A program made the translations under genes and the position numbers. A stretch of 64,000 nucleotides of DNA from Sulfurimonas hongkongensis (lineage in GTDB: Bacteria; Campylobacterota; Campylobacteria; Campylobacterales; Sulfurimonadaceae): contig NZ_AUPZ01000005.1 of assembly GCF_000445475.1 (NCBI RefSeq), positions 124,001-188,000 on the forward strand, written 5' to 3'. Below are positions 53,001-64,000 of the stretch, in pieces (the stretch's first letter is position 1; each line of letters begins with the position of its first letter). The notes under the pieces are model-generated. The model made no database searches. It was not told the DNA's origin and saw nothing but the letters and a program-made list of their open reading frames with translations.

Positions 53001-53942
53001 ATGCATATGGATAATTCGCTAAAAGTCGGTTCCAATGAGATGGAACTTGTTGACTTTCGTATTCTAAAAGAAGAAGATGGCGAAGTATATGAGGGGATTT
53101 ATGGCATCAATGTTTCAAAAGTTCGTGAAATAATTAAGATGCCAACATTAACAGAACTTCCAGGAACACCTAATTATATAGAGGGTATTTTTGATCTAAG
53201 AAGTATAGTTATTCCTGTTGTAAACTTGGCTAAATGGATGGGGATAACTGAGCCCGAAAGTGCTCATAAAAATTTAAGAGTCATTATAACAGAGTTTAAC
53301 AATGTTCTCATTGGTTTTGTAGTTCATGAAGCAAAAAGAATCAGAAGAATAAACTGGGCAGACATAGAGCCAGCTTCATTTGCAAGTGGTGGAGGCTCAC
53401 TAGATGGTAGTAAAATCACTGGTGTGACTAAGATAGAGGATGATAATGTGCTTCTTATCTTGGACCTAGAGAGCGTAGTTCAAGACTTAGGACTCTATCA
53501 GCCAAATATCGAACATGTATCAGAAGAGATGGAAAACTTTAGTGGTTTAGCTCTTATACTAGATGATAGTGCAACGGCTAGAAAAATAGTAAAAGAGGCA
53601 CTTGTGAAAATGGGCTTTAGTGTTGTAGAAGCTGGCGATGGAGAAGAAGGGCTAGAGAAGTTAGATGATCTTTACAATATGTATGAAGAAGAGCTCTCAA
53701 AGAAACTAAAGATAATTATATCAGATGTTGAGATGCCAAAGATGGATGGATTTCACTTTGCAGCAAATGTTAAAGAAGATGGTAGGTTTGACAAAATTCC
53801 TATAGTTTTTAACTCTTCTATTAGTGATCACTTTAGTGAAGATAGAGGAAAAGAAGCTGGAGCTGAGGCTTATCTTGTTAAGTTTGAAGCGACAGCATTT
53901 TATGATGAAATAGCACGAATAGTTCGTGCTCATATGAAATAG
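53001..53942 (+). CDS. cheV: Chemotaxis coupling protein CheV
   Basis: 313 residues from ATG 53001 (a second ATG at 53007 is possible) behind AGGAGA. The N-terminal CheW domain (YGINVSKVREIIKMPTLTELPG, IEGIFDLRSIVIPVVNLAKW) is joined to a receiver domain (ALILDDSATARKIVKEALVKMGF, phospho-Asp in IIISDVEMPKMDGF, Lys in AYLVKFEA). It couples receptors to CheA and can accept phosphate. It heads the cheV-cheA-cheW unit. Confidence 0.93.
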   Translation: MHMDNSLKVGSNEMELVDFRILKEEDGEVYEGIYGINVSKVREIIKMPTLTELPGTPNYIEGIFDLRSIVIPVVNLAKWMGITEPESAHKNLRVIITEFNNVLIGFVVHEAKRIRRINWADIEPASFASGGGSLDGSKITGVTKIEDDNVLLILDLESVVQDLGLYQPNIEHVSEEMENFSGLALILDDSATARKIVKEALVKMGFSVVEAGDGEEGLEKLDDLYNMYEEELSKKLKIIISDVEMPKMDGFHFAANVKEDGRFDKIPIVFNSSISDHFSEDRGKEAGAEAYLVKFEATAFYDEIARIVRAHMK

Positions 53943-53952
53943 GAGTGTAAAT

Positions 53953-56379
53953 ATGGATGAATTTCAAGAAATATTGCAAGATTTTTTAGTTGAAGCTTTT
54001 GAGCTTGTTGAAAAGCTAGATGAGGATTTAGTTGAATTAGAATCGACACCAGAGGACTTAGAACTTCTAAATGGAATTTTTCGCGTAGCACATACTATTA
54101 AAGGTGCTTCATCATTTTTAAACTTTGATATTTTGACACATTTGACCCATCACATGGAAGATGTTTTAAACAAGGCTAGACATGGCGAGTTAACCATCAC
54201 TCCGGAGGTAATGGATGTTGTTTTGGAGTCTATTGACCTTATGAAATCGCTCTTAAATACTATCCGCGATACAAGTTCTGATGGAGGCATCGATGTATCT
54301 GAGTGTGTCGCTAGGCTAGATAAGATCAGTGGTGGAGATGGAGATGTTCCTATGCCAGAAGTGTCAGAGCCAATTGAGGAAGTTGCGGTGGAAGAGCCAC
54401 AAGAGAGTGAAGATGAGCTAGACTATGAAAATATGTCTGATGAAGATGTAGAAGCTGAGATACAAAGACTACTAGAACAAAGACAAGCAGAAGATAAGGC
54501 TAAAAGAGAAGCTAAAGTCGCAGCAGGTGAGGATGTCTTAGCACCTCCTCCAGATCCAGAAGATGAAGCCCCATCAGAGCCTGCAAAAGCATCAAAACCA
54601 GAGAAAAAATCTGAGCCAAAAGAAGAGCCTGCTAAAGCTCCCGTTCCAAGAGCTAAAACAAATGCTAAATCGGTGAATGATAATGAAGACTTAGGTGCAA
54701 AAGCAGCAGCTCCAGCTAAAAGATCTAACACTACAGTAGATCAGACTATCCGTGTTGATGTTAAGAGACTTGATCATCTTATGAACCTTATTGGAGAGTT
54801 AGTTCTTGCTAAAAACAGACTTATAAAGATAAATGATGATGTTGAAGAGAGATATGAGGGCGAAGAGTTCTTAGAAGAGCTAAATCAGGTTGTCTCAATA
54901 GTTTCACTTGTTACAACAGACTTACAAATCGCAGTCATGAAGACAAGAATGCTCCCAATAGGAAAAGTTTTTAATAAGTTCCCTAGAATGATTCGAGATT
55001 TAAGTAGAGAGTTAAACAAAAAGATAGAACTAACAATAAAAGGTGAAGATACAGAACTTGACAAGTCTATAGTCGAAGAGATAGGTGATCCATTAGTTCA
55101 TATCATTAGAAACTCTTGTGACCATGGTATAGAGACTCCAGAGGTAAGACTTGCAAATGGTAAGAGTGAAACAGGTACTATATCTTTAAAAGCTTACAAT
55201 GAAGGTAACCAAATCGTTATCCAAATAGATGATGATGGAAAAGGTCTTGATGCAGACTCACTAAAAAACAAAGCACTTGAAAAAGGACTTATCAGCGAAA
55301 AAGAGGCTGATAATATGGGCGAAAAAGAAGCTTTTATGCTCATCATGAAACCAGGTTTTTCTACTGCTGCTGCTGTAACAAATGTCTCTGGTCGTGGTGT
55401 TGGTATGGATGTTGTAAAAACAAACATAGAAAAAGTAAATGGTATCATTGATGTAGATAGTGAAACTGGAGTTGGAAGTAGCGTTAAGCTAAAGATTCCT
55501 CTAACTCTAGCTATCATTCAAGCTCTTTTAGTCGGTGTTCAAGAAGAGGCTTATGCTATTCCGCTCTCATCAGTTTTAGAGACAGTTAGAATCTCAAAAG
55601 ATGAGATATATACAGTTGAGAGTCGCTCAGTTATGAGACTGCGTGATGATGTTTTATCTCTAGTTCATATTGGAGATATCTTTGAAGTTGAGAGAATTTT
55701 AGACTCAAGTGAACACGCTTATGTTGTTGTACTTGGTTTAGGCGCTCAAAAGCTTGGTCTCATAGTTGACTCACTAGTTGGTCAAGAAGAGATAGTTATC
55801 AAGTCTCTTGGTGAGTACCTAAAAGGAATAGAGGGAATTGCCGGTGCCACAATTAGAGGAGATGGGGGTGTGACACTTATTGTTGATGTTGTTGCACTCA
55901 TGGATATAGCGAAAAATGTAAAAGCTACTTCTATGATATCTGATCAAAAGTCAGGAGCGGAACAGTCTCTTGAGAAAACTAAAGCAAGCGACTATACTAT
56001 CATGATAGTAGATGATTCTAAAACCGATAGAATGATTATGAGAAAGTCACTTGAAGCAACAGGAATGACTCTTGTTGAAGCGTCAGATGGACAAGAAGCG
56101 CTAAATATCTTAAAACAAGGTGATCATCACTTTGATGCAATGCTTATAGATATTGAGATGCCAAGAATGGATGGTTATACACTAGCTACAGAGATTAAAA
56201 AATACAATAGATATAAGCAGATGCCTCTAATAGCAGTTACTTCAAGAACTGGTAAATCTGATAGGATGAGAGGTGTTGAGTCTGGAATGGTTGAGTATAT
56301 CACTAAACCATACTCATCAGACTACCTATCTAGTGTAGTTCAAAGAAATGTTAACTTTAAATCGGAGTTCTTATCATGA
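53953..56379 (+). CDS. cheA: Chemotaxis histidine kinase CheA with C-terminal receiver (CheAY)
   Basis: 808 residues. P1 Hpt domain with H47 in FRVAHTIKGASSFLNFD, an acidic and Pro/Ala/Lys-rich linker (~135-265), P3 dimerisation, P4 kinase (HIIRNSCDHGIETPEVR, IDDDGKGLD, NVSGRGVGMDVVKTNI), P5 CheW-like domain, and a receiver at ~680-808 (IMIVDDSKTDRMIM, Asp in MLIDIEMPRMDGY, YITKPYSSD). The fused receiver is the form typical of Helicobacter and Campylobacter and acts as a phosphate sink or modulator. It overlaps cheW by 4 bases. Confidence 0.94.
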   Translation: MDEFQEILQDFLVEAFELVEKLDEDLVELESTPEDLELLNGIFRVAHTIKGASSFLNFDILTHLTHHMEDVLNKARHGELTITPEVMDVVLESIDLMKSLLNTIRDTSSDGGIDVSECVARLDKISGGDGDVPMPEVSEPIEEVAVEEPQESEDELDYENMSDEDVEAEIQRLLEQRQAEDKAKREAKVAAGEDVLAPPPDPEDEAPSEPAKASKPEKKSEPKEEPAKAPVPRAKTNAKSVNDNEDLGAKAAAPAKRSNTTVDQTIRVDVKRLDHLMNLIGELVLAKNRLIKINDDVEERYEGEEFLEELNQVVSIVSLVTTDLQIAVMKTRMLPIGKVFNKFPRMIRDLSRELNKKIELTIKGEDTELDKSIVEEIGDPLVHIIRNSCDHGIETPEVRLANGKSETGTISLKAYNEGNQIVIQIDDDGKGLDADSLKNKALEKGLISEKEADNMGEKEAFMLIMKPGFSTAAAVTNVSGRGVGMDVVKTNIEKVNGIIDVDSETGVGSSVKLKIPLTLAIIQALLVGVQEEAYAIPLSSVLETVRISKDEIYTVESRSVMRLRDDVLSLVHIGDIFEVERILDSSEHAYVVVLGLGAQKLGLIVDSLVGQEEIVIKSLGEYLKGIEGIAGATIRGDGGVTLIVDVVALMDIAKNVKATSMISDQKSGAEQSLEKTKASDYTIMIVDDSKTDRMIMRKSLEATGMTLVEASDGQEALNILKQGDHHFDAMLIDIEMPRMDGYTLATEIKKYNRYKQMPLIAVTSRTGKSDRMRGVESGMVEYITKPYSSDYLSSVVQRNVNFKSEFLS

Positions 56380-56873
56380 GTGACAAACTAAAACAAGTAC
56401 TAAGCAAACAAAGTAGACAACAAGAAAACGAATCTATTGACCAGTCAGATGATATAGTTCAACTAGTTGGCTTCATTATAGGTGAGGAAGAGTATGCCGT
56501 GCCTATTCTTTCTATTCAGGAGATTATAAAACCTTTTACTTGGACTAGAGTTCCTCAAGTACCTAAGTATGTTATGGGAGTGTTTAACTTGCGTGGCGCG
56601 GTCATTCCTCTTATAGATCTTCGTTTGAAATTTGGCTTAAGTGAAAAAAAACATAGTGATGAGACTCGTTTTATTGTTATGAAAGATAGAGATGATGTAG
56701 CTGGGTTTGTAATAGACAGACTAACGATGGCTATTAGAATCAAAAAAGAAAATATTGGACCTGCACCTGATACAATAAATGGAGATAACACTATGATAGA
56801 TGGCGTTGGCAAGCAAGAAGACAGAATCATAACCATACTAAAAGTAAACAAACTACTAGAGAGAGATTTTTAA
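56376..56873 (+). CDS. cheW: Chemotaxis adaptor CheW
   Basis: 165 residues. CheW fold: VQLVGFIIGEEEYAVPILSIQEIIKP, VPKYVMGVFNLRGAVIPLIDLRLKFGL, then VAGFVIDRLTMAIRI. It links receptors to CheA in the polar array. It overlaps cheA by 4 bases. Downstream is a 10-bp perfect inverted repeat (GTAAACTCTC 56895-56904 and GAGAGTTTAC 56919-56928). Confidence 0.94.
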   Translation: MSDKLKQVLSKQSRQQENESIDQSDDIVQLVGFIIGEEEYAVPILSIQEIIKPFTWTRVPQVPKYVMGVFNLRGAVIPLIDLRLKFGLSEKKHSDETRFIVMKDRDDVAGFVIDRLTMAIRIKKENIGPAPDTINGDNTMIDGVGKQEDRIITILKVNKLLERDF

Positions 56874-61627: not shown

Positions 61628-62059
61628 CTAAGAGTTATACTTGTAACTCCAACCTGTAAGTTTATGCTCTTTTGTCTCTATAAACCCATCACTATCAGCT
61701 AAAAAGTCCATTACATGCATAAGAGCATAAGGGATACTTCGCTGGTCTTCTGGTTTGACTAAAAGTAGTGGCATGGCCGTATCTTGTTGACTCATAGAAA
61801 AACCTACTGACATAAGCTGACTCATAATCTCTTTAGGGTTTTTGATACTGTTTTCCTTTAAAAACTTCTCAAAAACTGCATCTTTTATATCTTTTGGTAA
61901 CTCATCACTAGTGTTTAAAAAGATAGTAAAGTGAATGGGAGTATCAATAAAATGGCTAGGTGCAGGCGTTGCCATAATTATATACTCTACATTTTTAAGA
62001 TGTGCTTCTATCTCTTGGTGTTCATAATATTTATCTGTGTTTATAGCCTTTGCAATCAA
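61628..62059 (-). CDS. Hypothetical protein at the distal end of the nap cluster
   Basis: 143 residues, cytoplasmic, no Cys cluster. I do not recognise it. It has a compact mixed fold (VEYIIMATPAPSHFIDTPIHFTIFLN, then IPYALMHVMDFLADSDGFIE). It overlaps the preceding small gene by 4 bases and is co-translated with napD and its neighbours. A maturation or stress role linked to periplasmic nitrate reductase is inferred from position alone. Confidence 0.7.
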   Translation of the reverse strand: MIAKAINTDKYYEHQEIEAHLKNVEYIIMATPAPSHFIDTPIHFTIFLNTSDELPKDIKDAVFEKFLKENSIKNPKEIMSQLMSVGFSMSQQDTAMPLLLVKPEDQRSIPYALMHVMDFLADSDGFIETKEHKLTGWSYKYNS

Positions 62060-62331
62060 CTTTTTTGTTCCTTTGCATCTTCTATCTCTTGTTGGTGCTT
62101 AGCCATAAGAAGTCTTATTTCATCCATAGCTTGTGGAGAGACGTTGTCATCTTTGCTCCATTTAACTTCATCAATATGACCACCATAATCAGCACCAAAA
62201 TCTTCTATTTTTTGTAAAAACTCATCCATATCTAAGCAGTTGTGACTCCTCCCAACTACAGTGTCTTTTAGCACAATATACCAGTCTAGCTTTTCATCAA
62301 CTTTTATAACCGCCTCGAAGATTACGCTCAT
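62056..62331 (-). CDS. Small hypothetical protein downstream of napD
   Basis: 91 residues: a strand-rich N-terminus (VIFEAVIKVDEKLDWYIVLKD) and a charged, helical C-terminus (QAMDEIRLLMAKHQQEIEDAKEQ). There are no signal peptide or metal motifs beyond one Cys. It begins immediately after the napD stop and overlaps the next gene by 4 bases. Not recognised; context ties it to the nap cluster. Confidence 0.7.
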   Translation of the reverse strand: MSVIFEAVIKVDEKLDWYIVLKDTVVGRSHNCLDMDEFLQKIEDFGADYGGHIDEVKWSKDDNVSPQAMDEIRLLMAKHQQEIEDAKEQKS

Positions 62332-62727
62332 TTACTTTACTCCTCTTGAAGTATCAGTAAAACTCTTTGCAAAACTCTCCAAATCTTTTTTCTTTAAGTC
62401 GCCATTATAAACTATATTTCTTGGATCTATATTGTCATCATTTAGCATTTTTGGAACCACGTCTGCATTGTTTATAACTTCCATATGAGCATCTAGTTCA
62501 TCTTCACTATAAGCCATCTGCATATCAGCAGATATTACATGAGGAATAGCCTCTATGACTGAGAGTTTTTTCAACTCCTCTTCAACGCCCGTGCCTTCTA
62601 TAGTAATAATTATTCTTCCTATTTCATCATGCAGGTGATAATCACAAACCTCACAACTCTTTAGACTCTCTACAACTTCTTCTAGATATTTTGGTAGACA
62701 CTTAACTACTATACTTGATATATTCAT
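62332..62727 (-). CDS. napD: NapD chaperone for periplasmic nitrate reductase
   Basis: I use ATG 62727 (NISSIVVKCLPKYLEEVVES), seven bases after AAGGAAAA; an upstream in-frame ATG at 62748 overlaps the PAS gene. ~131 residues. The ferredoxin-like NapD fold has LHDEIGRIIITIEG and VIEAIPHVISADMQMAYSED. NapD binds the twin-arginine signal of NapA and holds it during cofactor insertion. The C-terminal ~45 residues (NADVVPKMLNDDNIDPRN) go beyond the usual NapD core. Confidence 0.88.
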   Translation of the reverse strand: MNISSIVVKCLPKYLEEVVESLKSCEVCDYHLHDEIGRIIITIEGTGVEEELKKLSVIEAIPHVISADMQMAYSEDELDAHMEVINNADVVPKMLNDDNIDPRNIVYNGDLKKKDLESFAKSFTDTSRGVK

Positions 62728-62728
62728 A

Positions 62729-63190
62729 CTATTTTCCTTTTTTTTCATAAATGATTTTTCTTATGTTTTCGCCGTTTTCTTCGCGCATTTTATCATACAA
62801 TCTTTGATATTTGAACTTTTCGTCTCGACTAATCGGGCTTCTAATAGATTTGTATTCAACTAATTTACCATCTTTAAAAACTCCAGAGACAATAGCCTCA
62901 ACCCAGTAGTAGCCTTTGTCCTTTCGCAAATTTTTGATAACACCTCTCCACTGCTCACCGTTATGAAGAGCCTCCCACAACTCACTAAAAACAATGCTTG
63001 GCATATCTGGATGCCTTACAATACTGTGAGGTTTTCCTAGAAGCTCATCTTCTTCATATCCACTTATCTCGCAAAATGTCTCATTTGCATATGTGATATT
63101 TCCATCTAAGTCAGTTCTTGAGATGATTATCTCTTCTAAGGGAACCTCAGTCTCAAACAAAAACTCACTTTCGTTGTATTGCATGCTCAT
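62729..63190 (-). CDS. Standalone PAS-domain (Aer-type) protein in the nap cluster
   Basis: 153 residues, almost wholly one PAS domain: IIISRTDLDGNITYANETFCEISGYEEDELLGKPHSIVRHPDM, FSELWEALHNGEQWRGVIKNLRKDKGYYWVEAIVSG and YKSIRSPISRDEKFKYQ. The NGEQWRG and KGYYWV wording is of the Aer/FAD-binding type. There is no output domain. It lies between napL (4-base gap) and napD (1-base gap), so it is translated with the nitrate reductase genes. It could sense redox state or signal to chemotaxis partners in trans. Confidence 0.88.
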   Translation of the reverse strand: MSMQYNESEFLFETEVPLEEIIISRTDLDGNITYANETFCEISGYEEDELLGKPHSIVRHPDMPSIVFSELWEALHNGEQWRGVIKNLRKDKGYYWVEAIVSGVFKDGKLVEYKSIRSPISRDEKFKYQRLYDKMREENGENIRKIIYEKKGK

Positions 63191-63194
63191 CCTT

Positions 63195-64000
63195 TTAATT
63201 GATTTTATAGTAGTTTAGAGTTGTTGAATCACTACCTATAAAAAATTCTTTTTCATTTAAAAAAAGAATTTTTGAAATAGTTCCTTTGTTCCCTCCAAAA
63301 TGACCAATACTACTATGTGTAGAGATTTTAAAGACTTCTACATTGTTTTGCTCATCATTGGAATACGCAACTAATTGAGCATTAGGCGAGATAGCTACAC
63401 TATAGATAAGAAATTCAGCCATTTTATAGAAATTTGAGCCATTGTTTAGGTTGTAAACTACTGTTTTTCTATCTTGTCCAGCAGTAACTACGATACCCTT
63501 TTGGCTATCTACTTGAAAAACATTATCTAAGTTTTGACCACTTAGCATTTTGACAAATGATCCATCTTTTGTCTTGTGTATTTTTAAGTTACCACTCTCA
63601 TCTGCTATAACCACTCTAGTTTTATCATCTATAAGAACAAAATCAGAAAACTTTGATTGTGATATTTGGGTCTTATAATTTTGCTTTTTATTTTTTATAT
63701 CATATGAGATGATTTCATTACTTAAGAGACCTAGTAGCAGAGTGTCTTTATCTAAAAATTTTGCTTTTGCAATAAAAAGCCCATCAGTATAAGGAATGAT
63801 AAGTTCGAGTTTTTTATCTCTGTATATATGAACTCTTCTAGCACCTTTTTTAGCTTGTGATAAAATCATAACCATGTCACCAATCACATCTACAGAGTAG
63901 ATTTTAGAGTCTATGATATCTCCCATAAAGTCTGTTATTTGTGATACTTTTATCTTTTTGAGTAGCTCTTTAGTCTCAAGATCAAAAATATCAACACTGC
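63195..64000 (-). CDS. napL: NapL-like beta-propeller protein, 5' end outside the window
   Basis: The frame is open to the right edge, beyond the internal Met at 63926, so the N-terminus is missing; ~268 residues are visible. It is a WD-like repeat protein with blade strands such as VDVIGDMVMILSQAKKGARR, DTLLLGLLSNEIISYDIKNK, VLIDDKTRVVIADESGNLKI, VVTAGQDRKTVVYNL and VAYSNDEQNNVEVF. NapL is an uncharacterised propeller found in the nap operons of Campylobacterota (order napAGHBFLD as I recall). It is assigned from fold plus neighbourhood of napD. Confidence 0.8.
   Translation of the reverse strand, partial: SVDIFDLETKELLKKIKVSQITDFMGDIIDSKIYSVDVIGDMVMILSQAKKGARRVHIYRDKKLELIIPYTDGLFIAKAKFLDKDTLLLGLLSNEIISYDIKNKKQNYKTQISQSKFSDFVLIDDKTRVVIADESGNLKIHKTKDGSFVKMLSGQNLDNVFQVDSQKGIVVTAGQDRKTVVYNLNNGSNFYKMAEFLIYSVAISPNAQLVAYSNDEQNNVEVFKISTHSSIGHFGGNKGTISKILFLNEKEFFIGSDSTTLNYYKIN

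Follow-up and report, generated by a model that had tools for sequence, protein, structure and literature searches.

The gene between napL and napD in the analysed 64,000-nucleotide stretch of Sulfurimonas hongkongensis DNA (the window), here called nap-PAS, probably encodes a cytoplasmic FAD-binding redox sensor which is dedicated to periplasmic nitrate respiration and acts locally on Nap, not through chemoreceptors. What counts for this reading was obtained by computation: the operon position and the conserved tie to nap, the invariant flavin contacts, the selection that persists in genomes without chemotaxis, the monophyly of the nap-linked copies (99/99), and the ribbon-helix-helix (RHH)-like fold predicted for the tails of the long forms. 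Counted against it were the weak RHH scores, the short forms without helices, the nap-bearing genomes of the genus without a copy near napD (9 of 28), and the 16 copies away from napD.

The nap-PAS gene, its operon and its flavin pocket

The initial annotation had placed an Aer-type PAS gene between napL and napD, and this placement was confirmed. napL ends at 63195, with a gap of four bases to nap-PAS, and a single base separates nap-PAS from the napD start at 62727 (Table 1). An in-frame ATG at 62748 lies upstream of this napD start and, if used, would make napD overlap nap-PAS. A ribosome-binding-like AAAAGG was found ahead of the nap-PAS ATG. The gene order in the genome is crp224-pilJN336-napA-napG-napH-napB-napF-napL-PAS-napD-hyp91-hyp143. 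Upstream of napA (L022:14014-17110), a Crp/Fnr-type regulator gene and the gene of a PilJ-N-domain protein have the same orientation as nap, whereas a 4HB-GGDEF protein is encoded divergently; homologues of the Crp and PilJ-N genes were again located beside nap in the loci L094, L176, L183 and L189.

Table 1 Coordinates of nap-PAS, its sequence features and the neighbouring genes in the window
Feature	Position	Strand	Evidence or remark
nap-PAS gene, stand-alone Aer-type PAS protein, 153 aa	62729..63190	-	ORF; PAS_3 E=1.3e-18; Aer PAS 8dik E=3.5e-32
PAS domain core, residues 22-120	62831..63127	-	Pfam and PDB matches
RHPDMP motif, residues 59-64 (R59 = Aer R57)	62999..63016	-	Mapping onto Aer; invariant in 83 nap-PAS sequences except P61 (0.99)
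Conserved C-terminal strand I-R-K-I-I-Y (RxVxY), residues 143-148	62747..62764	-	R144 0.99, V146 0.81 (I in the window copy), Y148 0.96
napL, WD40-like propeller, 317 aa, runs beyond the window end	63195..64000	-	
napD, NapA-specific chaperone	62332..62727	-	PF03927 E=3e-21 (Pfam)
hyp91, small conserved nap-linked protein, no assigned function	62056..62331	-	Recurs beside napD in Sulfurimonas-type loci L087, L089, L189
hyp143, nap-linked protein, no assigned function	61628..62059	-	Recurs beside hyp91 in L087, L089, L189

Pfam matched PAS_3 in the window copy and no further domain, in agreement with the earlier statement that the protein has no output domain. The solved structures closest to it were the Aer PAS domain 8dik, full-length Aer 31cj, MmoS (E=7.7e-29) and NifL (E=1.8e-17), and the PAS fold was nearest to those of FAD-binding Aer, NifL and MmoS both by sequence (window copy) and by fold (a long orthologue). 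It has been reported that FAD is contacted in Aer by H53, R57, W70, N85 and R115, of which R57 forms a salt bridge to the FAD phosphates (PMC9668731). These five residues map to H55, R59, W72, N87 and R117 of nap-PAS; all five are present in the window copy and invariant across the 83 aligned orthologues. The assignment to the FAD-binding Aer kind was borne out at the sequence level, and nap-PAS is predicted to bind FAD in an Aer-like pocket.

Linkage to nap and independence from chemotaxis

Conservation of the gene order, which the annotation had put forward as a check, was found within the genus, and linkage to nap extends over the order. The genus is represented by 28 genomes with nap, the present one among them. 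In 18 of these the order is napL-PAS-napD, and in one the PAS gene follows napD; no PAS gene was found in the vicinity of napD in the other nine. The recurrence of the arrangement in 18 genomes indicates that it is not due to chance, and the nine genomes without a copy near napD suggest that nap does not depend on nap-PAS there.

For the order, a profile built from 24 nap-PAS copies was searched against 249 genomes with a completeness of at least 90%. This yielded 91 copies in 89 genomes, all scoring at least 194 bits and clearly set apart from the paralogues, which reached at most 183 bits. NapD was detected in 88 of the 89 carriers and in 203 of the 249 genomes overall (raw counts that ignore kinship), with G159 as the sole carrier showing no NapD. 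For the 86 copies with a located napD, again with kinship ignored, the order was napD-PAS in 59 and PAS-napD in 11, so nap-PAS adjoins napD on either side in 70; the remaining 16 lie elsewhere and belong to the families f4 (nine, all of f4), f6 (three) and f7 (four). Linkage to nap was seen at named loci of Sulfurimonas, Arcobacter/Aliarcobacter and Sulfurospirillum and in some MAGs labelled Aquificota. On the MAG contigs labelled Aquificota or Hydrogenothermaceae (L096, L100, L107, L110) the gene lies within nap clusters, which could reflect either gene transfer or a binning error.

The adjacency to napD would also fit a partner in Nap biogenesis or activity, in which the flavin PAS protein acts on NapD, on NapA export or on the quinol-oxidising NapGH module for redox gating of maturation, with the C-terminal strand as docking element. 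Such a role would account for the short forms and for retention without chemotaxis, and it is favoured by the presence of the strand in forms without RHH helices. Against it stand the 16 copies away from napD, the carrier G159, in which NapD was not detected, the many nap operons that lack nap-PAS, and the DNA-binding-like fold predicted for the long forms. We regard this explanation as rather unlikely overall, although for the short form the strongest competing view is a protein partner, for instance NapD or NapGH.

The initial annotation had further proposed that the protein may signal to a chemoreceptor in trans. Under this proposal nap-PAS would dock, like CetB, on a CetA-type receptor and couple nitrate respiration to swimming, perhaps just as one of its roles and only where a species is chemotactic. 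A protein which feeds only a chemoreceptor is expected to be lost together with chemotaxis. MCPs were absent in 14 of the 80 nap-PAS carriers searched, namely G012, G020, G205 and G270 in f1, nine genomes in f6 (every carrier of that family), and G255 in f9. CheW was searched in all 14 and found in none, and no CheA was detected in G012, G020 and G041 in a search that covered the first 60 relatives. The exact RHPDMP string occurs in 13 of the 14 copies of these genomes; in the G205 copy it was not found as such, and the five contact residues are still kept. The dN/dS of nap-PAS was 0.093-0.155 between the MCP-less sisters G114, G125 and G243, and 0.047-0.076 between the MCP-less sisters G061, G193 and G248. 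Values of about 0.05-0.16 point to purifying selection on nap-PAS in these species. Since the gene is kept under selection in species without a chemotaxis system, steering cannot be its conserved job, and energy taxis was rejected as the conserved output on account of the carriers without chemotaxis genes. Conversely, eight nap-bearing genomes of the genus possess CheA and have no copy near napD (G005, G009, G017, G021, G024, G025, G026 and G036). A cheV-cheA-cheW cluster is located at 53001-56873 of the window, with a distance of about 5 kb to the nap operon; this closeness was rejected as evidence for taxis, because nap and cheA are likewise separated by ~7-8 kb in members of the genus that lack a PAS gene near napD, for example G005, G021, G024 and G025.

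The receptors of the genome itself were also considered. The genome encodes 20 MCPs (E<=1e-12) and 17 Aer-type PAS domains, and CetA-like receptors, which the annotation had suggested looking for, do exist. Three have a stand-alone PAS gene directly before the MCP gene (L074/L016, L078/L007 and L080/L003), so that there are three CetBA-like pairs, each with its own PAS. Some short receptors that have hydrophobic segments at the N-terminus lack a PAS gene next to them (L010 and L004), which leaves room for docking of nap-PAS in trans. The genes flanking nap-PAS are nap genes, with no adjoining CetA-type receptor. In the pair L080/L003 (contig C7, about 77 kb), a gene for a sulfide:quinone oxidoreductase-like flavoprotein is followed by the stand-alone PAS gene and then by an MCP gene with a CZB zinc-binding domain.

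A tree was built from 117 PAS sequences, and its 74 nap-linked members formed one clade (99/99). A branch with support of 98/90, in a tree that has long branches and does not include C. jejuni CetB, parts nap-PAS and the PAS domains of larger proteins of the same genome from MCP-fused Aer and from the MCP-, uvrC- and nos-linked PAS sequences. Signalling to a chemoreceptor in trans was not upheld as the conserved function, in view of the carriers without MCP and CheW, the persisting selection, the receptors with a PAS of their own and the separate position in the tree. What speaks for energy taxis is the Aer type of the domain, the many MCPs of the genome, among them L010 and L004, and the finding that CetC of C. 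jejuni makes good the loss of CetB in trans (PMC3558505); on the other side, CetB levels in C. jejuni depend on CetA (PMC2628428). On balance, energy taxis was judged an unlikely role, although nap-PAS may serve taxis as well where a species is chemotactic.

The position of nap-PAS in the tree, next to PAS domains from larger proteins of its own genome that are for the most part signalling proteins, would also be compatible with an operon hitch-hiker, i.e. a member of a general redox-signalling network (with, for example, c-di-GMP or kinase partners) that resides in nap merely for co-expression. A GGDEF gene is present near napA in this genome, and the f4 copies at L178 and L179 have a diguanylate cyclase, or its relative, as neighbour. 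However, a constant partner gene was looked for beside the orphan copies and none was found, and this explanation is considered very improbable.

The C-terminal strand and the RHH-like tail of long forms

The window copy ends just after the conserved RxVxY strand, with which a predicted RHH domain starts in long orthologues. The long forms, which were found in f4, f17, f18, f20, f22 and some other families, continue for about 30 residues beyond the strand, and some f6 and f7 copies have tails of intermediate length. The extension has a predicted strand-helix-helix layout as in RHH (CopG/Arc) repressors. When the G039 copy was compared with Pfam, RHH families took all of the first five places (E values of 0.0014-0.033), with matches that do not reach the curated cut-offs. 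A profile of 24 tails matched the RHH proteins ORF56 (E=0.004), HP0222 (0.18), AvtR (0.21) and MazE6 (0.96) in the PDB, alongside designed proteins and unrelated chains; the designed-toroid matches were taken as repeat artefacts. AF2 placed helices at the expected positions, whether the full long form was modelled or the 50-residue tail alone. With the predicted tail fragment, CopG chains took ranks 1-7 in Foldseek, with 37-41 residues superposed at an rmsd of 0.7-1.3 A and probabilities of 0.97-0.99; most of the remaining listed matches were RHH proteins, the best E for this fragment of 50 residues being 0.19. The VIA-align result agreed with the RHH match, with Z up to 6.4.

The window protein has no strand-helix-helix domain, as both RHH helices are missing. 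Short forms like this keep R144, V/I146 and Y148 and end there or soon after. Since forms without the RHH helices also retain the strand, its role should be independent of those helices, and DNA binding does not explain its conservation there. According to the fold prediction, the long orthologues should be one-component redox transcription regulators. A wider reading, which we offer tentatively as possible, is that nap-PAS represents a family of redox transcription factors of the order's nap operons, composed of an FAD-PAS and an RHH domain, and that the relatives in Sulfurimonas and Arcobacter were trimmed, with the sensor and the strand kept and the output switched.

For the local sensor as a whole, we infer FAD binding, the signal and the target as follows. 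The Aer-like FAD pocket would sense the redox state of the cytoplasm or of the quinone pool, and the C-terminal helix together with the RxVxY strand would pass the signal locally to the Nap system. In the long forms the strand would open the RHH domain and the output would be transcription. In the short form of the window the output would probably run via a protein partner, or the protein may be a derived regulator without DNA contact; this is the weakest step of the proposal.

Relation to known systems and other PAS genes of the genome

CetB and CetB2, which work with CetA receptors in Campylobacter jejuni and Magnetospirillum gryphiswaldense, are also stand-alone Aer-type PAS proteins, and CetB2 uses FAD (PMC12442639). 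In contrast to them, nap-PAS has no adjacent receptor, has orthologues in genomes without MCP or CheW, carries an RxVxY strand or an RHH-like domain at the C-terminus, and forms a clade separate from the receptor-linked PAS sequences tested, to which C. jejuni CetB did not belong. The PAS domain of E. coli Aer (8dik_A) shares 41% identity with the long-form nap-PAS model over 126 columns and the FAD contacts are kept, whereas nap-PAS lacks the TM, HAMP and MCP modules of Aer. NifL and MmoS, which control metabolic genes, sense redox state with an FAD-type PAS and act via kinase-like or NifA-binding modules. nap-PAS resembles them in its FAD-type PAS and differs in its output, which would be the tail or the RHH-like domain. 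The strand-helix-helix layout of the long-form tail is common to the RHH regulators CopG, Arc and NikR, with CopG at the top of the Foldseek matches; unlike in these proteins, the RHH-like part of the long forms is fused behind a PAS domain, and the window copy is without both helices.

The nap clusters of Sulfurimonas, Arcobacter and Sulfurospirillum have been given as napAGHBFLD in papers on these genera, a listing without the PAS gene. A literature search limited to open-licence papers found neither a nap-linked PAS gene nor a description of a PAS-RHH protein. The type of sensor is already known; the operon-bound, chemotaxis-independent family and the PAS-RHH architecture appear to be new as far as the open-licence literature goes. 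If the proposal is true, a conserved flavin sensor in the nap operon, retained without chemotaxis and sometimes fused to a DNA-binding fold, would show how these vent and sediment bacteria adjust nitrate respiration to the redox state of the cell. It also calls for caution, as a stand-alone Aer-type PAS protein need not be an energy-taxis protein.

Other stand-alone PAS genes were observed in the same genome. On contig C7 (L187:1022-8432), uvrC is followed by a stand-alone PAS gene, a gene for an Hpt-domain protein, a gene for a hybrid histidine kinase of 1075 aa that contains a nitrate/nitrite-sensing NIT domain, and a response-regulator gene; the order uvrC-PAS-orf-~1070-aa occurs again in other Campylobacterota loci. 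On contig C2 (L186:5182-5721, about 319.2 kb), the nitrous-oxide reductase cluster contains a second stand-alone Aer-type PAS gene, flanked by a NosL-domain gene on one side and nosD on the other. This nos-linked PAS has copies with at least 70% identity in 11 other members of the genus and in G047, and its carriers G012 and G047 have no MCP and no CheW.
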